Assembly (NCBI GenBank): GCA_944324165.1
Contig: CALUVG010000016.1
Coordinates: 1-49,685, forward strand
DNA: 49,685 nucleotides
Direction of reading: 5' to 3'
Origin: Candidatus Gastranaerophilales bacterium
Lineage (GTDB): Bacteria > Cyanobacteriota > Vampirovibrionia > Gastranaerophilales > Gastranaerophilaceae
The position numbers and the translations under genes are program-made. Positions 19,569-34,347 of this stretch are shown in pieces (the first letter of the stretch is position 1; each line of letters opens with the position of its first letter). The notes beneath the pieces were generated by a model that made no database searches, was not told where the DNA came from, and saw nothing but the letters and a program-made list of their open reading frames with translations.

Positions 19569-20609
19569 ATGAATATTAAACCTTTAAGTCAAACAACACC
19601 AACAAAAATTCAGTTTGCAGGAAAAAATAAAAAACAGCCGCAAAAATCTGCGCAAACTCAACCTCAAATATCTATTAATAAAGCAGTGCCTCTGGCAGTT
19701 CTCATTGCAATGAGTCCGCTTGTTACTGCAGGATCACCAAATATATCAGATAAAAAACCGACACCTGTTGAAAATACAATGTCGGATATAGTTCCTGATA
19801 ATGTGAATTTGATTAAAACAGAAAAGTACCGCGGTAATGATGGTATCACCAGAAAATTATATTATGTAGGAAATACAGAAAACTCTTCAAAAGTAAATGA
19901 TATCTATATTAATGATGGCGATCTGGACGGTAAAAGAATTACTGAGTATAAAAATATTACGCTGAAACTTGTTGGAGATGACGGTGTTGAAGGTAAAACT
20001 TTTAAATTTCCTCAATTAACAGTTGAAGCTACAAATGATGCAGGAAGTGTGTACGGTTATACTGAACGTAATATTTCTGCGCAATTGGCTAAATTCTTGC
20101 TTTCTGATGAAAATAAGACAAATATTAAAACTAAAAATATAACCAAAAAAGTTAATGCAGGAAAATATGGGCTGGAAAATGCTAATCACGAAAGTACCTA
20201 CTGGACAAAGGTTGCACATGAAGGGTCATTTGGTAAGCCTGTTGCCGGCTGGACAAAAAAAATAGATGACCATACATATATGATTAATGCGTATAGTAAA
20301 GATAGAAATTTAAAAGATTATGAAGTCGTAACAATAAAACGTGCAGGTGGACCTGAGTTTGTGGTGACAAGTTTGAAAAATGTAACTTCTTCACTAATTG
20401 ATGCCGGCAGCCCTATTGGTGACTTCAACTATAAACAGATAACAGTCTTAAAAAATAAAGATACTTCTGTTGCAAGGATTTTTAACGATGTACTATTTGC
20501 AGACCTCGAAAAGTTGTTAAAAGACCCGGCTAACAAGGCTTTTAAACTGGAAAATGTCGAAGAAACACAAATAGTTGACCACAAAGGCAATATTTATGAT
20601 GTAGAATAA
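19569..20609 (+). CDS. Secreted paralog 1 with N-terminal FxGK tag
   Basis: Unknown family, 346 residues. It opens MNIKPLSQ and carries F16-A-G-K19. Then a Lys/Gln-rich spacer leads to a hydrophobic segment KAVPLAVLIAMSPLVTAG (about residues 38-55) that could be a signal or anchor sequence placed unusually far from the N-terminus. The rest is predicted beta-rich and polar (YRGNDGITRKLYYVG, then a domain with HTYMINAYSKDRN and VTIKRAGGPEFVV). The same layout recurs in the next two genes, so the three arose by tandem duplication. Good ribosome site GGAGTAATTTT before the ATG. Probably outside the inner membrane. Confidence 0.75.
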   Translation: MNIKPLSQTTPTKIQFAGKNKKQPQKSAQTQPQISINKAVPLAVLIAMSPLVTAGSPNISDKKPTPVENTMSDIVPDNVNLIKTEKYRGNDGITRKLYYVGNTENSSKVNDIYINDGDLDGKRITEYKNITLKLVGDDGVEGKTFKFPQLTVEATNDAGSVYGYTERNISAQLAKFLLSDENKTNIKTKNITKKVNAGKYGLENANHESTYWTKVAHEGSFGKPVAGWTKKIDDHTYMINAYSKDRNLKDYEVVTIKRAGGPEFVVTSLKNVTSSLIDAGSPIGDFNYKQITVLKNKDTSVARIFNDVLFADLEKLLKDPANKAFKLENVEETQIVDHKGNIYDVE

Positions 20610-20628
20610 CCCCCCATGGAGAAATGTG

Positions 20629-21696
20629 ATGAATATAAAGGCAATAAATAATACTCAATTAAAGTTTAATCAGGCAGTTTTTAAAGGTAAAGAGTCTCAA
20701 AAACAGGGAAACATAAAAAGTTCCTCTCCGAGCTATGTTAAAATTCCTCTGGCAGTCCTAATAGCAATGAGTCCTTTAACAACACCAAATACAATGGCTC
20801 AAGATAAATTGCCGAAAAAACCGGATGAAATACTATTGGAAAGACAACAAAAAAATCAACCTAAGACAAAAGTTCTGGATGTCAAAACATTTTTTAATGT
20901 AAATGGCGAAAATTATGTTGTCAGAACAAAAAGCACAGACGGAGATCATACGAATTTTGAAAAAATTACTGTCTCACAGGCAACTCCAAAATCACGCGGA
21001 GCTAAATATGACACAAAAGAAATTTCAAGATATAACTTTGCCCCTTGTACAGACGATCTGGAAGCAAATAACGGATTTTTCACGATAGATGGCGTTCAGG
21101 TACAAGATATTGACAGTCAGAAAAAACTTATAGGTAATGAAGAATTTATAAACTATTTTGAAGAATTGGCAAATTCACCGAAAAATAACGGCGCATTAGA
21201 AGTTGTAAATCACAATGAAAATATTGTTCCATTGCCGTCCGGCAGAGTACATGTCTCATATGAAGACGGTAATATCTGGCAGGATGCCGAACCATACACC
21301 CCGAAAGGCGAATATATGGGGCACAGAATATTGGAAGGCGACAACGGTATATATGATATAGCAATATATAATTCAGACGATCAAACTCTCACCGCAGAAG
21401 AATTTACACTAAAAAAAGAGGGCTGCCCTGAATTAAAAATAGATAAAATGATAAAAGTAAAATCCAGCTTTGCTACTGATCATAATAAACCAATTGATTA
21501 TGAAACATATCAATTTAATCTGACAGATGACAATGGCGTAACAACCGTAATTTATGATAAAACTCTCGGTGAATATATGGAAAGAGTCTGCAAAAGTACT
21601 TTATATGAAAAGGATAACGTTCCTTTTGATAAAGGTAGTATAGAAAAAGAATATAAAATTTCTGCAAGTACAAATAAAATATATGATAATAAATAA
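20629..21696 (+). CDS. Secreted paralog 2 with N-terminal FxGK tag
   Basis: Second member of the array, 355 residues from ATG 20629 (GGAGA at 20618-20622 favours it over the GTG one codon earlier). It opens MNIKAINN, has F18-K-G-K21 and the hydrophobic segment KIPLAVLIAMSPLTT near residues 40-54, followed by a possible AQD cleavage region. The C-terminal domain shares EGDNGIYDIAIYNSDD and FTLKKEGCPELKI with its neighbours. The N-terminal half differs more than the C-terminal half. Gap to paralog 1 is 19 bases, so they are co-transcribed. Confidence 0.75.
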   Translation: MNIKAINNTQLKFNQAVFKGKESQKQGNIKSSSPSYVKIPLAVLIAMSPLTTPNTMAQDKLPKKPDEILLERQQKNQPKTKVLDVKTFFNVNGENYVVRTKSTDGDHTNFEKITVSQATPKSRGAKYDTKEISRYNFAPCTDDLEANNGFFTIDGVQVQDIDSQKKLIGNEEFINYFEELANSPKNNGALEVVNHNENIVPLPSGRVHVSYEDGNIWQDAEPYTPKGEYMGHRILEGDNGIYDIAIYNSDDQTLTAEEFTLKKEGCPELKIDKMIKVKSSFATDHNKPIDYETYQFNLTDDNGVTTVIYDKTLGEYMERVCKSTLYEKDNVPFDKGSIEKEYKISASTNKIYDNK

Positions 21697-21713
21697 AATC
21701 AGGAGAATGAATT

Positions 21714-22784
21714 ATGGCGATAAAACCAGTATCACAATTAATTCCTAAAAGCACAAATTTAGTACAATTTGAAGGCAAAAAGAAAAATAACCAGCCTAAA
21801 ACAAGTACAACACCTATGGTAAAAGCTGTCCCTCTTGCCGTCCTAATTGCAATGAGTCCGATGGCGACAAATGCTAGTAAAAATCCGACTATAGAAAAAC
21901 AAAATAATATAGAAATGCTTGATATACAGGCAGTTAACAATACACAACAATCCGGTAAGGTTATTTCTACAAAACGATTTAACCAAATTGAACCGGGGAT
22001 TGATCTGGGTGTTGAGCTTTTAAATATGAATGGTCAAAAAAACGTTAAATTTAGCTACATAGAAAATGGTAAAAAAATTGATGAAACAATTGATAACAGA
22101 TTTATAAAATATAATTTTACTATTGTTTCTGATGATGGAACTAAAAAATCTTTTAAATTGAAAAGTGTCCATTCATTTGTAAAAGACCCTTATCAGTCTG
22201 CGTTGATAGAACCTAAACCTGTAATTATAAAGAAAAAAGCGGTTGTTAATTATATGGAAACCCTAAATAAGCAATATCCTCAGGATATTAAAAAAGTTGA
22301 ATATAACCGCACATTAGCCCCAACAAGCGGTGGAACATTACAAAACAATGCTCAAGGTAATGTAATGAAAAATGCCAAACCAATGGAAAGTTATGGTAAA
22401 TATGTTGGCAGTCAAGATTTTGAAGGTGATAATGGTGTTTATACGGTGAGGTATTATTCTACTGATGAAAATGATAATAACGCAGAAAATGTTACCATTC
22501 AAAGAGAAGGATATCCTGAATTAAAAGTTGCCCTTCTGGTATTCCATAACGATTACTTTAATAAAGCTACTGATAATCCTACAAAAATAGCTTATGGTCA
22601 AATTATGTTGAAGGGTGCCGACTCTAAATATAATATTATAGATAATAAACTAGCTTTAACATTAGATCAAGTAAAAGATATTTTGACAAAAGAACAAAAT
22701 GCCTTTAATAATGCATTTGCATCTGTATCTATATCAAATGAATATGGGACAACTCAAAAAGGTGCCGTATACAAAATAGATTAA
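21714..22784 (+). CDS. Secreted paralog 3 with N-terminal FxGK tag
   Basis: Third member, 356 residues. It opens MAIKPVSQ, has F19-E-G-K22 and the hydrophobic segment KAVPLAVLIAMSPMATNAS (about 37-55). The C-terminal domain contains EGDNGVYTVRYYSTDEN and VTIQREGYPELKV. It is the clearest match to paralog 1 in the hydrophobic core and to paralog 2 around EGDNG. AGGAGAA precedes the ATG at 21714. The array ends at the terminator at 22811. Function unknown. Confidence 0.75.
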   Translation: MAIKPVSQLIPKSTNLVQFEGKKKNNQPKTSTTPMVKAVPLAVLIAMSPMATNASKNPTIEKQNNIEMLDIQAVNNTQQSGKVISTKRFNQIEPGIDLGVELLNMNGQKNVKFSYIENGKKIDETIDNRFIKYNFTIVSDDGTKKSFKLKSVHSFVKDPYQSALIEPKPVIIKKKAVVNYMETLNKQYPQDIKKVEYNRTLAPTSGGTLQNNAQGNVMKNAKPMESYGKYVGSQDFEGDNGVYTVRYYSTDENDNNAENVTIQREGYPELKVALLVFHNDYFNKATDNPTKIAYGQIMLKGADSKYNIIDNKLALTLDQVKDILTKEQNAFNNAFASVSISNEYGTTQKGAVYKID

Positions 22785-26681: not shown

Positions 26682-27704
26682 ATGGCTGTGAAAGAAACAG
26701 AAACTACTACTTCTGCTCAAGATGAAAGAAGTAAAGCATTAAAACTTGCTATAGAAAAGATTGAAAAGGACTTTGGAAAAGGTTCCATAATGAAACTCGG
26801 AGATAAGGCATCTGTAAATGTAGAGGCTATTCCGACAGGGTCTCTGGCACTTGACGTGGCACTTGGTATTGGCGGAGTTCCGCGCGGTCGTATTATTGAG
26901 ATTTACGGACCTGAAAGCTCAGGTAAAACTACACTTGCACAGCATATTGTTGCCGAATGCCAAAAACGCGGCGGTATTGCGGCATTTGTGGACGCAGAAC
27001 ACGCACTTGACCCTGAATATGCTAGAAATTTAGGGGTTAAAGTTGATGATTTGTTAATTTCACAACCTGATACCGGAGAACAGGCACTTGATATTACCGA
27101 GGAATTAGTTCGTTCAGGCGCGGTTGATGTTGTTGTTGTAGACTCGGTTGCCGCACTTGTTCCAAAAGCTGAAATCGAAGGGTCTATGGAAGACCAGCAA
27201 ATGGGGCTGCAAGCGCGTTTGATGAGCAAGGCTTTAAGGAAATTAACCGGTATTATCGGGAAAACAAACACTACAGTTATATTTATTAACCAGTTGAGAA
27301 TGAAAATCGGGGTTATGTACGGTAATCCTGAAACAACGACCGGTGGAAACGCATTGAAATACTACGCATCTGTTCGTATGGAAATTAAACGAACAGATGG
27401 TGTTAAAGGCGAAGACGGCGATGTTGGTAACCACGTAAGAGTCAGAGTTGTTAAAAATAAGGTTGCGCCGCCGTTCAGAACTGCTGAATTTGATATTATC
27501 TTTGGTAAAGGTATTTGTAAGACCGGTAATATTCTTGATGTTGCGGTTAACCTTGATATTGTAAAAAAAGCAGGTTCATGGTTCAGCTTTAACGAAGAAA
27601 AATTGGGTCAGGGGCGTGACAAGGCACGTGACTTCTTGAACGATAATCCTGACATTCTTAATCAGATAGAAACACTTGTCAGAGAAAAATTGGCAGAAAA
27701 ATAA
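26682..27704 (+). CDS. recA: Recombinase RecA
   Basis: ATP-dependent strand-exchange protein and LexA co-protease. The 340 residues include Walker [10 protein letters not shown] (76-84), [11 protein letters not shown], the Walker [19 protein letters not shown], loop L1 [20 protein letters not shown], and loop L2 [26 protein letters not shown]. The C-terminus is shorter and less acidic than in E. coli. AGAGGAA lies ahead of the ATG. It follows a HTH gene in a likely operon. No canonical SOS box was recognised upstream. Confidence 0.98.
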
Positions 27705-27763: not shown

Positions 27764-28234
27764 TTACCTTTTTTTCAAGGTGATATGTACCGTAAAACAC
27801 TTATCTGTTGTACGAGCATCTGCCCCAATACTAAAATGAATATCCTCAAAATCTTCATAACCAAGGTATATAGAGAATTTCATATAATCCAGATTCATAC
27901 CGTCTCTAAAAGGCAGAGGTTTCACAGACATAATTATTTCTTTTACTTTTTGGTCAAAGTAATCATTCTGGTATACAGAAACTCGCATATCTTTTATTTC
28001 ACCATCACGTGTTATAGTCAAATAATAAGACGTACCCCAGTGGCAGAGTGCAAACATTTTTTTATTTTCAAATGCTTTACGCAACTCCTTGGCATAATCC
28101 TCCATATACCCGAAATATATAGGATGTGTCTCTTTGGTCGCTGTTTTACCTGAACCAAACGGATATAACTCCTCGCTTTTCGAGCTAAGAGGAGTTAATA
28201 GTAAAATCAGCAATAATATTAATATTCTTTTCAT
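27764..28234 (-). CDS. Periplasmic TonB-C-like protein, copy 1
   Basis: The 156 residues begin with a signal peptide (MKRILILLLILLLTPLSSKS, cut before Glu-Glu). The mature part resembles the TonB/TolA C-terminal fold: YYLTITRDGEIKDMRVSV, then FDQKVKEIIMSVKPLPF, a DG-turn strand followed by a helix and a proline exit. There is no membrane anchor or proline-rich spacer, so it is not a full TonB. It is nearly identical to copy 2 (29236-29706): from KETHP to SIGA the two differ at 5 of 105 residues, while the N- and C-terminal ends differ. The ATG at 28234 is preferred over a TTG at 28252 and sits six bases after a TATAAT. Possible immunity partner of the adjacent lipase. Confidence 0.8.
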   Translation of the reverse strand: MKRILILLLILLLTPLSSKSEELYPFGSGKTATKETHPIYFGYMEDYAKELRKAFENKKMFALCHWGTSYYLTITRDGEIKDMRVSVYQNDYFDQKVKEIIMSVKPLPFRDGMNLDYMKFSIYLGYEDFEDIHFSIGADARTTDKCFTVHITLKKR

Positions 28235-28240
28235 ACATGA

Positions 28241-28246
28241 ATTATA
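28241..28246 (-). promoter_or_regulatory. Leaderless -10 box of TonB-C-like copy 1
   Basis: TATAAT (minus strand 28246-28241), then TCATGT, then ATG at 28234. It lies directly after the lipase stop codon. A GAGG exists 12 bases upstream of the ATG but is too far to be a good ribosome site, and the -35 is not clear. Confidence 0.5.
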
Positions 28247-28248
28247 CC

Positions 28249-29145
28249 TCAAACATTTCTTTCCGGATAGCGTCTGTAATATCCTTCTACCCGGGTGCCA
28301 TCATCGCGTGTATAGGCAGATACTTTTACCAGCCCCGCTCTTATCGCGCGTTCGGGATAAATTTCGCCCCTTGCCAGTCTTTCCATTAATGCATCATCAT
28401 ATAAATCAAATAATTCTTCTTTGGCAATTTCATCTATATTTTTATCGGTGATAGCGGCATCTGTGAGATGATCAAGAAACCATGGATGTTCTTTTTTGTA
28501 ATCTTCAACAAGCATTGCCCCGATACAACTTGGCATATTTTTGATGCCATGCGCACTTTTTGTACCAAACGGGGTACGTGCATGTGCCTGAGTTTCCCTT
28601 AGTATAAATGTTAAGCCAATATTTTCTTTAAGTTTTGAAACCGGATCATTTTTGTCTCTGAAATTGAAAACCCAGTCTGAATAGTCAACGTCAGGATCCA
28701 GATATTTTTTAGAAATACCAAATGCATTATATGTAAATGTCTGGAAACCATATTCCAGTCCGACATGTGTTGCTTCAGTTCCGCCTTCAGAATGCCCAAT
28801 TGATACTGTATTATTGTATGTTAAACCATGTTTATCTCTTAAAGCTTTTGTGAATTCTTTTGCTCGTTCAATTTGTCTACTGGAACCAGTAAGTGCCATT
28901 TTTAGATTGGCACCCCAATCTTTGCGTTTTTCTTTGTTGTCTGTTCCTACAAAACATACAGCATACTGTTCGCCTTTTTTGTAAAGCACTACCTTGCAGT
29001 TGCTGGCTTTGTCATATTTGTGATCTACTTTTACCCAGCCATTGCCGGCGTCTGTACCTGCGGCTACACTGTCTTTGCACATATCATTTGCTTTGGCACA
29101 CAATTCTTTGTATTCGTCTGCCTTGAGGAAAAAATCGTTGTTCAT
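28249..29145 (-). CDS. Alpha/beta-hydrolase, lipase-like (DUF2974/Mbeg1-type)
   Basis: The 298 residues from ATG 29145 (AAAGGA eight bases upstream; an in-frame TTG at 29175 is less likely) have the class 3 lipase/DUF2974 layout. An oxyanion-side strand AVCFVGTDNKEKRKDWGANL precedes the nucleophile elbow GHSEGG with Ser119. A likely acid is Asp167 (RDKNDPVSKL) and a likely base is His199 (KSAHGIKNM). No signal peptide. The C-terminus (about 215-298) is charged and specific. It lies between two near-identical signal-peptide proteins, an arrangement seen for secreted phospholipase toxins with periplasmic immunity proteins. Substrate and export route are unknown. It could instead be a housekeeping lipase. 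Confidence 0.8.
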   Translation of the reverse strand: MNNDFFLKADEYKELCAKANDMCKDSVAAGTDAGNGWVKVDHKYDKASNCKVVLYKKGEQYAVCFVGTDNKEKRKDWGANLKMALTGSSRQIERAKEFTKALRDKHGLTYNNTVSIGHSEGGTEATHVGLEYGFQTFTYNAFGISKKYLDPDVDYSDWVFNFRDKNDPVSKLKENIGLTFILRETQAHARTPFGTKSAHGIKNMPSCIGAMLVEDYKKEHPWFLDHLTDAAITDKNIDEIAKEELFDLYDDALMERLARGEIYPERAIRAGLVKVSAYTRDDGTRVEGYYRRYPERNV

Positions 29146-29169
29146 ATTTTTTATCCTTTTGAGTTTGTA

Positions 29170-29208
29170 TTGCAAAATAACTGCTTAAAAAAAGCAGTTA
29201 TTTTGCAA
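29170..29208. other. Perfect 15-bp inverted repeat between TonB-C copy 2 and the lipase
   Basis: TTGCAAAATAACTGC (29170-29184) and GCAGTTATTTTGCAA (29194-29208), loop of nine. On the transcribed minus strand the T run is in the loop, not after the stem, so it is not a typical terminator. It lies 25 bases upstream of the lipase ATG, where it could control read-through, processing or lipase translation. Confidence 0.75.
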
Positions 29209-29235
29209 GAGATCTACACAGGTTAAGACATCAAG

Positions 29236-29706
29236 CTATTTTTTCTTCAGGGTAACATCTATCGAAAAACAATTATCAGGTGAGCGCGGGAAAGCTCCTA
29301 TACTAAAATGTATGTCTTCATAATCTTCATAACCAAGATATATTGCAAATCTCATATAATCCAAATTCATACCGTCTCTAAAAGGCAGAGGTTTCACTGA
29401 CATAATTATTTCTTTTACCTTTTGGTCAAAATAATCATTCTGGTATACAGAGACTCGCATATCTTTTATTTCACCATCACGTGTTATGGTCAAATAATAT
29501 TCAGTTCCCCAGTGACAGCGCGCAAACATTTTTTTGTTTTCAAATGCTTTGCGCAATTCTTTAGCATAATCTTCCATATATCCGAAATATATAGGATGAG
29601 TTTCTTTAGTTTCCGATTTGCCTGTCCCGCGCGGCCACAGTTCTTCACTAAAACTTGCTAAAGGTGTTAGGGAAAATATCAGCAATAATATTAATATTTT
29701 TTTCAT
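29236..29706 (-). CDS. Periplasmic TonB-C-like protein, copy 2
   Basis: The 156 residues start MKKILILLLIFSLTPLASFS (signal peptide, cut before Glu-Glu) and then carry the same TonB-C-like core as copy 1, with its single Cys-His-Trp-Gly motif conserved. The differences are concentrated after the signal peptide (LWPRGTGKSE versus LYPFGSGKTA) and in the last 18 residues (FPRSPDNCFSIDV versus DARTTDKCFTVHI). Such a constant core with variable ends suits binding partners that have adapted to different targets. It is upstream of the lipase on the same strand. The ATG is six bases after TATAAT with no ribosome site. Confidence 0.8.
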   Translation of the reverse strand: MKKILILLLIFSLTPLASFSEELWPRGTGKSETKETHPIYFGYMEDYAKELRKAFENKKMFARCHWGTEYYLTITRDGEIKDMRVSVYQNDYFDQKVKEIIMSVKPLPFRDGMNLDYMRFAIYLGYEDYEDIHFSIGAFPRSPDNCFSIDVTLKKK

Positions 29707-29948: not shown

Positions 29949-30212
29949 ATGAATGTGCTTAAACCCTTATATATCATACGTTTGAAGAGTTAAATTTTTT
30001 GCCCTGTCTTTTGGGGTGATTTTTGTGTAAAAAATGAATTTTAAAGGTTATGTTAACTTTTGTAAATGCAAATTTATGGTCTCAAAGCCTTATAGGTCAA
30101 CATTTTTCTGTTTTTATAGAAAAACAACTTAAAAAATAAGGCAATTAATAATTATCAGGAAACTTACATGCAGTACATAACGTGAAAGTGTAGAAAAAAT
30201 CTGGAGGTTTCA

Positions 30213-31367
30213 ATGATTGACAAATTAAATGGTGTACAATTTACAGGTAATACAGGTAAAAATCTGCCTGCCCAAAAACCTGAAAAAACAAATAAACAGG
30301 AGCAGCCAAAACAAACAGTGGTTGTATCTAAAGATGGCGCACGTGCATTACGCAACTATGCAATGGGTATTCTTGCAGCGTTAGGAACAACAATAGCTGC
30401 ACCTACATTGACAAGCTGCGATGACGATTTTGCTCCTGATATAGATTTCTCTCATAAAGACAGCACTGTTGTAAATGTGGATTTTCATCCCGTACCGCAA
30501 AAACCGGATACATTTATTATAAAAGTTCCGGAAATTGTAACCGATACTATATATAAAACCGATACAATTTATAAAGACAAACCAATTTATCTGCCGGGTG
30601 ATACTATTTATCATACTGACACAATTTATCAGGAAAAACCAATCTATCTGCCGGGTGATACAATCTATCAAACTGATACAATCTATGAAAAAGTACCGGA
30701 AATAGTCAGAGATACAATCTTCCAAAAAGATACAATCTATCAAGATAGACCTATATATCTTCCGGGAGACACAATTCATGATACTATTCGCGTAGAAATT
30801 CCTGGTGAAACTGTCTATATTAAACCTGATTATGAATCAGAAGTAGCAGACTCATTAATCGCTCAGGCTAAAAATCTTGGTTTGGATGTAGACAACGGCG
30901 GAAAAATCCCTACACGTATCCACGCATTTGATCAATGGAATTCTACAGACCACGACCTGGTGTTCGACGGTAAATCTTCTTCTGAAGAAACAATGACATT
31001 TATTGACAGAAAACGTGATTACCGTTTCGATGCATACAACCCAACTTTAGGTTACAGTAAATGCGAATTCTCAGTTGATTACGGTAAAGGTGTAACATTT
31101 GATTACTACGACTCACGTTATGAAGGGCTGAAACCGGACAGCAAAAATGATTGGATCCACAAAGGCAGAGTTTGTCTGACAAACTTGAATAACGGATTTG
31201 TTCAAAAATCAACATATGATGAAAACGGCGGTCTGGTAAAAGTCGGAACATATGAAAAAGGTGCTCCGGATGTAAGTTTCTATGAAAATATCATCAGCCC
31301 TAGCGGATACATTGATTCTTACTCTTGGACAGAAGGAAAGATGTATACAAGCAACCCTGAAAAATAA
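30213..31367 (+). CDS. Lipoprotein with Asp-Thr-Ile repeats and N-terminal FxGN tag
   Basis: Unknown function, 384 residues. F10-T-G-N13 occurs in the opening. A hydrophilic stretch then leads to a hydrophobic segment (about 50-65) ending in a lipobox LTSC with Cys69, followed by Asp-Asp-Asp. Residues 105-203 are repeats of DTIY and PIYLPG units: ten Asp-Thr-Ile, three PIYLPGD. The C-terminal domain (about 205-384) holds RIHAFDQWNSTDHDLVFDG and ends SPSGY-x-DSYSW, both shared with the next gene. CDDD after the lipidated Cys recalls the surface-export signal of Bacteroidota, and DTIY repeats are also typical there. GGAGG site before the ATG. Likely a cell-surface protein. Confidence 0.8.
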   Translation: MIDKLNGVQFTGNTGKNLPAQKPEKTNKQEQPKQTVVVSKDGARALRNYAMGILAALGTTIAAPTLTSCDDDFAPDIDFSHKDSTVVNVDFHPVPQKPDTFIIKVPEIVTDTIYKTDTIYKDKPIYLPGDTIYHTDTIYQEKPIYLPGDTIYQTDTIYEKVPEIVRDTIFQKDTIYQDRPIYLPGDTIHDTIRVEIPGETVYIKPDYESEVADSLIAQAKNLGLDVDNGGKIPTRIHAFDQWNSTDHDLVFDGKSSSEETMTFIDRKRDYRFDAYNPTLGYSKCEFSVDYGKGVTFDYYDSRYEGLKPDSKNDWIHKGRVCLTNLNNGFVQKSTYDENGGLVKVGTYEKGAPDVSFYENIISPSGYIDSYSWTEGKMYTSNPEK

Positions 31368-31387
31368 ATCTATAATAAATAGAAAAT

Positions 31388-31431
31388 AAATGCCTTTGCA
31401 AAAGATATTAAATTTTGTAAAGGCATTTTTA
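31388..31431 (+). terminator. Terminator after lipoprotein 1
   Basis: AAATGCCTTTGCAAAA pairs with TTTTGTAAAGGCATTT (16 pairs, one G-T), loop of about nine bases, then TTATC. The T run is the end of the stem itself. Confidence 0.8.
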
Positions 31432-31470
31432 TCTATAAAAATCCGTTTTGACGGGCTTTTGCGATTTTCA

Positions 31471-31479
31471 TGTTACAAT
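31471..31479 (+). promoter_or_regulatory. Extended -10 promoter of lipoprotein 2
   Basis: TGTTACAAT (31471-31479). A TTGACG lies at 31448-31453, 20 bases upstream of the -10, slightly too far. The leader of about 70 bases ends with GGAGG. Confidence 0.5.
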
Positions 31480-31554
31480 TTGCATGCAATAATAGCAAAT
31501 TTTTAATTTTAGGGATTTTAGAACTCGTACACACAAATTGGAGGTTCATACAAA

Positions 31555-32487
31555 ATGATTGGAAAAGTAAACAATGTCAAATTGAATTTTGCAGGTAACA
31601 CACAGAAACCTAAAAAAGAAAATGTAGTGTCTAAGCCGCAAAATCAAAATGCAAAACAAAATGTGGTAATGTCAAAAGACGCAGCAAAGGCAATGCGTAA
31701 CATGGCATTGGGAATTCTTGCAACATTAGGAGCAAGTTCAATGGTCGTAAGCTGTGATGACGATCCTGATTTTAGTTTTAAAGACGAGTCTTATACAGAA
31801 GTTAATGTAAATCTTCATCCGCATCCGGTTAAACCTGATACCATAATTATTGAAAAACCTATTCCAGGTGACACTGTGAGAGATACCATCACTGTAGTTT
31901 TACCTGGTGATACAACATATATTAAACCTAATTATCAATCTCAAGTTGCAGATTCATTGGTTGCACACGGTAAAAACTTAGGATTTGATTTTGAAGGCGA
32001 AGGAAATGTTCCTGTAAGAATTCATGCATTTGATCAGTGGAATTCTACAGACCACGATTTAGTATTTGACGGTAAAGCGTCTTCTGAAGAAAAAATGGTA
32101 TTTATAGACAGAGCACAAGACTTTTCAGAAGATTCAGAAAATCCTACAATTAAATATAATCGTATTGAATATTCTGTAGATGAAGGTCGCGGCGTTGCAG
32201 GTGAAATATCCAAAGCACCTGTTGTAGGCGTAAAACCGAGCAGTGCAATTGAATGGATTGAAGTTGCAAATGTATGTGCAACTAACAATAATGACGGTAC
32301 AATTTCACTTGCGCAGTATGATGACAACAGAAACTTAACTCCTGTCGGCTATCTTGAAAAAGAAGATGATGAATACAAAGATCAAACAGGTATCAGTTTC
32401 TATGAAAACTTGTTCTCACCTAGCGGTTATGAAGATTCATACGGCTGGTCAGAAGCTAAAATGGTATTAGCAACTCCGGAAAAATAA
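31555..32487 (+). CDS. Lipoprotein paralog without long repeats, N-terminal FxGN tag
   Basis: The 310 residues are a paralog of the preceding gene. F12-A-G-N15 is in the opening, the hydrophobic segment is about 49-66, and the lipobox VVSC has Cys67 followed by Asp-Asp-Asp. The repeat region is reduced to a few units (PGDTVRDTITVVLPGDT). The C-terminal domain keeps RIHAFDQWNSTDHDLVFDGK and the ending YENLFSPSGYEDSYGW. Loss or gain of repeat copies is the main difference. GGAGG before the ATG, own promoter, own terminator. Predicted outer-membrane or surface lipoprotein of unknown role. Confidence 0.8.
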   Translation: MIGKVNNVKLNFAGNTQKPKKENVVSKPQNQNAKQNVVMSKDAAKAMRNMALGILATLGASSMVVSCDDDPDFSFKDESYTEVNVNLHPHPVKPDTIIIEKPIPGDTVRDTITVVLPGDTTYIKPNYQSQVADSLVAHGKNLGFDFEGEGNVPVRIHAFDQWNSTDHDLVFDGKASSEEKMVFIDRAQDFSEDSENPTIKYNRIEYSVDEGRGVAGEISKAPVVGVKPSSAIEWIEVANVCATNNNDGTISLAQYDDNRNLTPVGYLEKEDDEYKDQTGISFYENLFSPSGYEDSYGWSEAKMVLATPEK

Positions 32488-32551: not shown

Positions 32552-32953
32552 ATGGAAACGTTAGCACAATTTGTTCAAAAGAAAAGAGATAAACTTGGCT
32601 TGTCACCATCAGGTTTGGCAAAAAAATGCAATCTTGATTTAAATACAATAGAGGAAATAGAAGCCGGTAAAGAATTGTTTCTGGCAGTAACTGTCCGTCA
32701 AAATTTAGCAAAAGGTTTGCGTTGCCATCCAGAAGAAATAAGAGTTTATGAAAAAGATATAAGTACGGATTTAGTATCACCGCAGATTATCGAAAGTTTG
32801 AAAGAATTAATATTAAAAGGTTCCGGCGGGCTAAAATGTCCGAAGTGCGGAGCCCCGCTCGTTACAAAAATTGTTCAGATGTACGATTTAGAAGATAATC
32901 TGGTTGTAGAGCCAAAAGCGCACTGTTCAAAATGTGTATTTCAAATTCATTAG
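32552..32953 (+). CDS. XRE-type HTH protein with C-terminal zinc ribbon
   Basis: In its 133 residues, the N-terminal part (about 5-65) has the Cro/XRE helix pattern: FVQKKRDKLGLSPSGLAKKC, then LDLNTIEEIEAGKE. The C-terminal part holds CPKCGAPL and a second pair HCSKC, an obvious CxxC-CxxC zinc ribbon (about 96-129). Combination of the two suggests a small DNA-binding regulator or RNA-polymerase-associated factor. Sits between the lipoproteins and tmRNA. No obvious operator was found, but its promoter is short and self-contained. Confidence 0.8.
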   Translation: METLAQFVQKKRDKLGLSPSGLAKKCNLDLNTIEEIEAGKELFLAVTVRQNLAKGLRCHPEEIRVYEKDISTDLVSPQIIESLKELILKGSGGLKCPKCGAPLVTKIVQMYDLEDNLVVEPKAHCSKCVFQIH

Positions 32954-33059: not shown

Positions 33060-33458
33060 GGGGACGTTTTGGATTTGACAGGACGTTCGGTTGAGATAAA
33101 TTGCGAGTGCGGGAGCTGTTCCCGCTTATCAACGAGCAAACTAAATTAAATGCTAAAAACAATGTAATCGAAGCAGACTTCTCTAGAGCATATGCTTTAG
33201 CAGCATAGTCTTTCCGATGAACTAGCTACTCATATTTCCCAGCTTGCCGGAGGTATGAGTCCATTATGCAAGCGGCAGTGCATTGACGACGGTAGATGCA
33301 TCAAGATAACCGTTAAAGGTTAGTGTTTCCGCAAAAAACACTTTGGATTAGTTAACAGGTTGTGATATTCCCTGCATAATCCGAGAGAATTAATATCTAC
33401 ACTCGTAGAGGTTTATCAAGATCCGTTTTGGACAGGGGTTCAACTCCCCTCGTCTCCA
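33060..33458 (+). tRNA. ssrA: Transfer-messenger RNA (tmRNA, ssrA)
   Basis: Rescues stalled ribosomes and tags the unfinished protein for proteolysis. The 5' end GGGGACGTTTTGGATTTGACAG and the 3' T-arm GGGTTCAACTCCCCTCGTCTCCA are diagnostic. GGGGACG pairs with CGTCTCC to make the acceptor stem, leaving A33458 as discriminator. CCA is not encoded. The tag frame runs 33152-33208 and reads AKNNVIEADFSRAYALAA followed by TAG; the ALAA end is the normal degradation signal. It looks like a one-piece tmRNA, about 399 bases. Pseudoknots were not modelled. A calpain-like gene on the other strand ends three bases after it. Confidence 0.95.
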
Positions 33459-33460
33459 GT

Positions 33461-34198
33461 TTATATTAAATCTTTATCAAAATATCCTACTATGAATTTT
33501 AATCTTTTCATTGCTTCTTTAAAAGTAAGGGATATGCATTCCTGACATCTGTGGTCAAACAAATCTATACTCTTATCATCCGGATTTACTTTAAGGACGC
33601 TGTAACAATGGTTGTCACTCATGCCTTTTCGAAATCCGAATGTTGTCCCGACAACAAAACTATTATTCTCCGGAGTTTTACTTATTCCCTCAAAAATATC
33701 CAGACTCTCTTTCTTTTTGGATTTTAAGGTTAATCTTATTCCGCCTTCATTAATAATTATTGGTCTTTTGCCAGTAAAAATTTCTAAAAAGTTTGATGGT
33801 TTATTGAATTCAAATTCTTCATTACAATTAGGAAATCTGCATATCCACGGCTTTTTAGACGGGTCTTTACTTATAAGTTTATTCATCGCAACTTCTATTG
33901 CTTTAATAATTGGGTTATGCGGAAAATTTTTGTTAATCGGTATAGGATTTAAATATTTGTCCATATAAACAAGATCATCAGACTCTTTTTGTGAAACAAA
34001 AAAATCTTGATTTTTACCATTTATATTTCTGAATTTTACTCGAAATCCATTATCTGTGTGTGCTATATTTTCTGTTAAAATTTTTCTGCCGTTTACACTT
34101 CTGGTGAGCGCGCCTACAGATGAAACAAGATAACAGTCTTGAAAATATTGTATTGCAAATCTGAGTTTTTGTATTTCATCTAAACTGATAGGATTCAT
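33461..34198 (-). CDS. Calpain-like cysteine peptidase
   Basis: 245 residues from ATG 34198 (a TTG two codons earlier is the alternative; ribosome site weak). Near the N-terminus is YFQDCYLVSSVGALTRS with Cys22, resembling the calpain pattern Q-G-x-x-G-D-C-W. Later NHCYSVLKV has His197, where calpains have G-H-A-Y-S-V, and Asp215 in LFDHR is where calpains have Asn. That gives a complete putative Cys-His-Asp/Asn triad. No signal peptide or regulatory domains. A papain-like fold is inferred from motifs only. It could act inside the cell or be an exported effector. It abuts the tmRNA 3' end on the opposite strand. Confidence 0.65.
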   Translation of the reverse strand: MNPISLDEIQKLRFAIQYFQDCYLVSSVGALTRSVNGRKILTENIAHTDNGFRVKFRNINGKNQDFFVSQKESDDLVYMDKYLNPIPINKNFPHNPIIKAIEVAMNKLISKDPSKKPWICRFPNCNEEFEFNKPSNFLEIFTGKRPIIINEGGIRLTLKSKKKESLDIFEGISKTPENNSFVVGTTFGFRKGMSDNHCYSVLKVNPDDKSIDLFDHRCQECISLTFKEAMKRLKFIVGYFDKDLI

Positions 34199-34347
34199 AC
34201 TCAAATAAAACTTCTGAATAAAAAAGTTGCTATTTAAATAAATATATTGTTAATATTATAACCATTTACCCGCCTTTCTTACATGTTTTTCTTTTTGTGT
34301 TAATATATTCTTGTAAATAGTGGTACTTAATTATAAAGGAAGAGAAC

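Follow-up and report, generated by a model that had tools for sequence, protein, structure and literature searches.

Two adjacent genes on a Candidatus Gastranaerophilales contig encode proteins that we interpret, with a probability of roughly 0.6, as native, vertically inherited lipoproteins, duplicated in tandem in this genus and carrying a small predicted barrel on a variable stalk. Their Bacteroides-like look, namely an acidic lipobox and an Asp-Thr linker, would then have a history within these non-photosynthetic gut relatives of the cyanobacteria, which corrects a tempting story of horizontal transfer. The window, i.e., the whole stretch of DNA that was analyzed, is the 49,685-nt contig G000:C16:1-49685 from an assembly of 2.05 Mb in 55 contigs. 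The features of the locus are the following:

26682-27704 (+): gene that we take to be recA, named from its sequence; in other genera, the conserved neighbor on the upstream side of the lipoprotein genes
30203-30207 (+): GGAGG shortly 5' of the protein 1 ATG
30213-31367 (+): protein 1 ORF, 384 aa, with opening tag, lipobox, ten-DTI linker and C-terminal domain
30213-30251 (+): protein 1 N-terminal opening MIDKLNGVQFTGN, FxGN being residues 10-13
30360-30419 (+): protein 1 hydrophobic segment and lipobox LTSC, whose last residue is Cys69, invariant among relatives
30420-30428 (+): protein 1 Asp-Asp-Asp after the lipobox Cys, read from the sequence
30420-30827 (+): protein 1 linker (putative stalk), residues 70-205, 136 residues
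30543-30788 (+): protein 1 ten DTI units, inside the linker
30543-30686 (+): protein 1 57-bp tandem repeat, inside the linker DNA
30828-31364 (+): protein 1 C-terminal domain, 179 aa, predicted by AlphaFold2 as a helix and a beta-meander barrel
31540-31544 (+): GGAGG shortly 5' of the protein 2 ATG
31555-32487 (+): protein 2 ORF, 310 aa, tandem paralog of protein 1
31555-31599 (+): protein 2 N-terminal opening MIGKVNNVKLNFAGN, FxGN being residues 12-15
31753-31764 (+): protein 2 lipobox Cys67 and Asp-Asp-Asp
31756-31929 (+): protein 2 short linker, residues 68-125, with two DTI and one DTV
31930-32484 (+): protein 2 C-terminal domain, 185 aa, with the predicted strand order of protein 1
32552-32953 (+): gene for a small HTH and Zn-ribbon-like protein (Pfam match sub-threshold), the conserved downstream neighbor
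33060-33458 (+): tmRNA gene, downstream of the lipoprotein locus

The initial annotation had described an FxGN opening, a Cys followed by Asp-Asp-Asp in both proteins and an Asp-Thr-Ile unit repeated ten times in the first. All of these were recovered: the acidic triplet follows Cys69 and Cys67, exactly ten DTI were counted, and the opening is present in both proteins, whose C-terminal domains share 54% identity.

We determined how widely such proteins occur. A search with protein 2 found relatives in 27 of 146 genomes and 10 of 84 genera, none of them outside f1, the family to which the window belongs, and a profile made from an alignment of 31 C-terminal domains matched 64 of the 386 genomes of the phylum sample, in 10 of 142 genera, again all in f1. 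One genome of the window's genus (G005, 97% complete) gave no match with either query. Further comparisons used 88 proteins from 65 genomes, one of which (G087) came from the protein 2 search only; the G001 ortholog of protein 1 and the weakest profile match, G052:C22, were excluded. A GTDB-wide peptide-pattern scan, in which each of 84,980 species was represented by a single genome, yielded 23 stretches that fit a pattern, and 4 of them encoded a relative (L038-L041, all Candidatus Gastranaerophilales metagenome assemblies). This exact-peptide scan, which sees close relatives only and missed known ones of 30% identity, gave none outside the lineage.

Other collections were searched as well. 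Nothing scored above cut-off in Pfam or NCBIfam, the 31 domains matched no Pfam family at E <= 0.01, and PHROGs gave no match; the best E values in a PDB sequence search were 0.15 (domain profile), 0.3 (protein 1) and 0.32 (full-length profile). Protein 2 had no match at E <= 0.01 among phage and plasmid records, the protein 1 domain had none at E <= 1 among plasmids, and none of 47 pattern stretches in viral contigs was confirmed as a relative; with these results and the lack of a PHROG match, we rejected the idea that the genes are phage or plasmid cargo. Among the papers listed by literature searches on Gastranaerophilales, Melainabacteria, Vampirovibrionia and cyanobacterial Lol, none was seen to deal with these proteins or with lipoproteins or signal peptides of Gastranaerophilales.

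The genomic surroundings of the genes are largely shared across the family. We read 20 loci from nine other genera, and in 16 of them the gene immediately upstream, in the same orientation, is recA; these 16 span eight genera (g2, g7, g11, g14, g15, g22, g27 and g35), and in 12 of them a homolog of the HTH gene follows directly downstream. The loci lacking recA adjacency comprise three from g10, where the genes lie elsewhere, and one g14 second paralog. In the window's genus the lipoprotein gene exists in two copies, and at least three minus-strand genes separate these from recA. A tree of the 88 domains, built by a quick method and with several long branches flagged, required 10 label changes for 10 genus groups, the minimum being 9 and the mean of shuffled labels 56.5. 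By codon distance the two genes ranked 22 and 27 among the 35 window genes, and their GC content was ordinary. Taken together, these results point to an ancestral recA-lipoprotein-HTH locus inherited vertically within the family.

As a separate observation on this region, window 27764-29706 (-), between recA and the lipoprotein pair, encodes a DUF6792-like protein flanked by two near-alike small proteins that look secreted and match TonB_2 below threshold. Similar genes are also found in L038-L041.

These data bear on the proposal that a gene was acquired from gut neighbors, its foreign body having been joined to a local tag. The first part of the proposal is not supported, in view of an architecture common to ten genera of one family, the conserved recA locus, the genus-wise tree and ordinary composition, and of the lack of an outside relative in Pfam, NCBIfam, PHROGs, PDB, phage and plasmid records and the GTDB peptide scan, which are limited tests as far as Bacteroidota are concerned. 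Within the family, the tree of the C-terminal domain follows genus, and neither tree nor locus is at odds with vertical descent. The fusion can be dismissed because the opening, lipobox Cys, Asp-Thr linker and C-terminal domain co-occur across the ten genera. A simple pattern for the opening was present in 69 of the 88 relatives, and the 19 misses were mostly long g14 and g11 second paralogs, g2 and g10 variants and L159, together with L141 and L146, whose start was probably set too late. Recent transfer from Bacteroidota was rejected on locus, tree, composition and distribution, and a recent donor in that phylum is unlikely.

The linker, which is part of the Bacteroides-like look, varies within the family. 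In protein 1 it carries one DTF besides the ten DTI units, compared with a mean of 0.67 and a maximum of 5 DTI in 2000 shuffles. Its DNA contains a tandem repeat of 57 bases, equivalent to 19 residues (2.5 copies, 83% match), so that the linker seems to lengthen by local duplication. Linker motif and unit number differ among the 88 family proteins. DTIY and DTVY repeats are common in Bacteroidota; among plasmids, the linker matched 6 and 8 records at E 0.01 to 0.4, none of them from Bacteroidota, and these look like low-complexity chance. Phage records gave no match to the linker, and Pfam matches to the window proteins were sub-threshold only, e.g., MG2 across 15 linker residues.

That relatives were found in one family only leaves the origin of the gene unexplained, and would fit an older event in which the family ancestor took a gene with an Asp-Thr linker and an acidic lipobox from a Bacteroidota neighbor, followed by vertical inheritance. 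The LTSC and VVSC lipoboxes, the acidic patch and the DTIY-type linkers resemble Bacteroidota lipoproteins, which we counted in favor of such an event together with two Bacteroidota structures (4r03 and 3msw) among the weak structural matches described below. We nevertheless regard it as improbable, because no sequence match emerged from PDB, Pfam, NCBIfam, plasmids or the GTDB-wide peptide scan (the last for close relatives only), linker motif and number vary within the family along with a local DNA repeat, and the structures nearer the top of the match lists are not from Bacteroidota.

We then examined whether the proteins have the hallmarks of lipidation. Cys69 was the sole invariant column among 31 aligned full-length relatives and was preceded by Ser in at least 90% of them; furthermore, a Cys in a lipobox-like place behind a hydrophobic stretch was found in 88 of 88 relatives, L141 and L146 by a relaxed rule. 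The genome itself encodes Lgt (PF01790, 221.3 bits) and LspA (PF01252, 88.9 bits), both passing the Pfam cut-off. The proteins resemble bacterial lipoproteins processed by Lgt and LspA in their invariant Cys after a hydrophobic stretch and in the presence of both enzyme genes. They differ in the position of the Cys, which typically lies at about residue 16-35 and here lies at residue 67-69, the n-region being far longer than the short basic one of usual lipoprotein signals. The upstream starts of both window genes are preceded by GGAGG, and these starts are conserved; protein 2 also has an in-frame ATG from which the Cys would be residue 29. In relatives with a credible start the Cys was at residue 47-232, the range of 130-232 belonging to g14, g11 and g35 second paralogs (L024 733-2175, L119, L150, L153, L154 and L163) with long extra N-terminal regions before the Cys, some including another, earlier hydrophobic stretch. 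These long n-regions and distant cysteines make lipidation uncertain and are what speaks for a different reading, in which the hydrophobic segment remains as a signal anchor and the Cys has another purpose. Given the invariance of the Cys, the preceding Ser, its place in all 88 relatives and the Lgt and LspA genes, we consider that reading quite unlikely.

Lipoproteins with a conventional short signal seem very rare in the part of this genome that was scanned, which amounts to 849,598 bases or 41% of the total (L042-L061, L164-L183 and the window). Simple lipoprotein rules singled out 8 candidates among 751 ORFs and 5 among 849, and beyond the window pair the only one that looks convincing is L051:16923-17519, which reads C-I-N-N. 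The same rules applied to the stretches of 20 relatives gave 5 candidates among 291 ORFs, two of which are members of the same lipoprotein family.

Given the acidic residues behind the Cys, it was of interest to compare them with the lipoprotein export signal (LES) of Bacteroidota. Positions +2 to +5 included one or more acidic residues in 87 of 88 relatives, vs 54% of random 4-residue windows from the same mature proteins, and at least two in 52 of 88, vs 10%; as the 88 sequences are related, this is an enrichment within one family and not 88 independent cases. CDDD itself was present in 8 of 88. Lys was commoner than Asp at +3 (35 vs 27 of 88), +4 was acidic in 48 of 88, and +2 was Asp or Glu in 52 and another residue in 36. 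In PMC5080379 the LES is given as K-(D/E)2 or Q-A-(D/E)2 in C. canimorsus, with C-X-K-(D/E)2-X as the optimum, and as SDDDD in B. fragilis. These published forms were scarce: C-x-K-(D/E)2 was found in 2 of 88 relatives, C-polar-(D/E)2 in 6 of 88, and C-K-(D/E)2 and C-Q-A-(D/E)2 in none. Neither window protein has one, since both read C-D-D-D, with Asp already at +2. The similarity to LES lipoproteins therefore consists of a signal-peptidase-II-type lipobox with acidic residues immediately after it, whereas the window proteins have no Lys, Gln or Ser ahead of the acidic pair and carry an n-region of ~50 residues with the FxG opening. Thus, the annotated resemblance of CDDD to the known Bacteroides export signal did not hold for its published forms. 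The accompanying suggestion that the lineage evolved a similar rule fared better, in that it is compatible with the nearly universal acidic bias of the family, although such a rule would not be the signal as published; to judge from the sequences, it is possible that an acidic rule behind the lipobox evolved within the lineage.

What such a rule might do can be read in two ways. The acidic patch could act as a convergent LES-like signal that sends the lipoproteins across the outer membrane to the cell surface, a tentative idea that draws on the acidic excess over random windows, the frequent Lys at +3 and acidic residue at +4, and an Omp85 model above the Pfam cut-off in the same genome; a stalk with a putative binding domain would also suit a surface protein. 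The scarcity of the published forms, their absence from both window proteins and the kinship of the 88 relatives count against it. Alternatively, the acidic residues may retain the lipoprotein at the inner membrane, similar to the Lol-type Asp at +2, or merely tighten anchoring, which is possible and has in its favor the Asp or Glu at +2 in 52 relatives, with 36 relatives that have another residue there as counterevidence. Retention is further weakened by the LolA model, which scored 16.4 bits in this genome, below its cut-off of 23.6; judged on LolA alone, the Lol rule may not exist here. The missing clear LolA is no objection to surface export, since in F. johnsoniae an LES reporter was surface-exposed without LolA or LolB (PMC11885536). 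The family offers an independent, testable case for asking whether acidic residues behind the lipobox are a general outer-membrane export rule.

A weak LolA-like protein is encoded at L184 1492-2007 (-), adjoining a thioesterase-like gene; it looks more like a carrier from a lipid or pigment cluster than one for lipoproteins.

To characterize the C-terminal domain, AlphaFold2 was run on ten sequences. The protein 1 domain was predicted with pLDDT 81.1 and pTM 0.78 and the protein 2 domain with pLDDT 76.1 and pTM 0.77, with low-confidence stretches within 148-174; both models agree on a helix followed by about nine strands. Foldseek with the protein 1 model found nothing at E <= 0.001 in PDB and viral models. 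Structural comparison placed CpcT at the top for protein 1 (Z 6.2), followed by CRL (5.3), a designed barrel (5.2) and Parabacteroides DUF3836 (5.1), and for protein 2 CRL (6.8), RsfG (6.6) and nitrobindin (6.6). The best rows were 4o4o (Z 6.2, rmsd 4.7, 126 aligned) and 6lix (Z 6.8, rmsd 3.9, 141 aligned), and all Z scores were below 8, in the range that the tool calls common, so that the barrel assignment may reflect just a common arrangement. With a helix predicted at the N terminus and then a meander of some nine strands, the domains resemble the calycin-like barrels of nitrobindin, CpcT, CRL and nitrophorin, whereas identity to the matched rows was 4-10% and Z stayed below 8. A calycin-like binding barrel is our own reading of these models rather than a result.

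Under the favored reading of native, vertically inherited lipoproteins, translation would begin at the FxG opening, and the ~50 residues ahead of the hydrophobic segment would stay cytoplasmic as an unusually long n-region while Sec exports the remainder. Lgt would then lipidate the Cys and LspA cleave before it, leaving the acidic residues to rest against the membrane. The Asp-Thr-rich linker would form an extended stalk, its length changed by tandem duplication, and would hold the predicted nitrobindin/CpcT-like small barrel off the membrane, where it may bind a ligand or partner. We infer that the proteins function as lipid-anchored, stalked binding domains. Counted against the favored reading are the long n-region and distant cysteines of some paralogs, the scarcity of conventional lipoproteins, the middling structural matches, the lack of a match in G005 and the different site of the g10 genes.

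The opening extends beyond these lipoproteins. In 17 N-terminal regions, picked from the 31 relatives for their simple openings, M1, F10, G12 and the Cys were invariant. An N-terminal-region profile, searched in 39 relatives, gave 11 matches besides the known family genes (E 3e-10 to 8e-3). Five of them have a hydrophobic stretch ending in Cys, two of these in family f7 of the same order, and the remainder have at least one hydrophobic segment. The extra matches are not all independent of the lipoprotein family, since L070 seems akin to the weak domain match L159 and a short Asp-Thr stretch is present in L075. A loose pattern for the opening matched 18 of 780 ORFs in the same 849,598 bases, where 100 shuffles gave a mean of 5.1 and a maximum of 12. 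Applied to 20 stretches from other families of the order and class, it matched 7 of 279 ORFs (shuffled mean 1.7, maximum 5). This excess is modest, and some matches are plainly chance; the good cases, among them the three tandem genes at 19569-22784 described below, share more than the pattern.

The FxG opening was also seen on unrelated proteins (L071 1486-2673, L072 799-1992, L073, L082-L086 and L193 9848-12346), including some from f7, some with a lipobox and some with several hydrophobic segments. Within the window, three tandem genes at 19569-22784 (+) encode proteins of 346, 355 and 356 aa, which matched no Pfam family at E <= 0.01 and open with M-x-I-x-[AP]-[IV]...FxGK, followed by a hydrophobic PLAVLIAMSP segment. 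An unexplained N-terminal opening is thus common to unrelated proteins of an uncultured order. A more far-reaching and doubtful view is that M-x-[IV]-x-[APS]-[IV]-[NS]...F-x-G could serve as an N-terminal address tag throughout the order. Lipoproteins, membrane proteins and some proteins that lack an obvious export signal would carry it, and a dedicated routing or export system, as yet undescribed, would read it, with the stalked lipoproteins as one cargo class having a self-evolved acidic rule. A comparable element is the ESPR (extended signal peptide region), a conserved extension ahead of the export signal of Gram-negative autotransporters. The FxG opening is likewise a conserved, lineage-specific extension ahead of an export signal, but its motif differs, and it also opens proteins with multiple hydrophobic segments and some without an obvious export signal. 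Beside the tmRNA gene, window 33461-34204 (-) encodes a calpain-like (Peptidase_C2) protein with a sub-threshold match.
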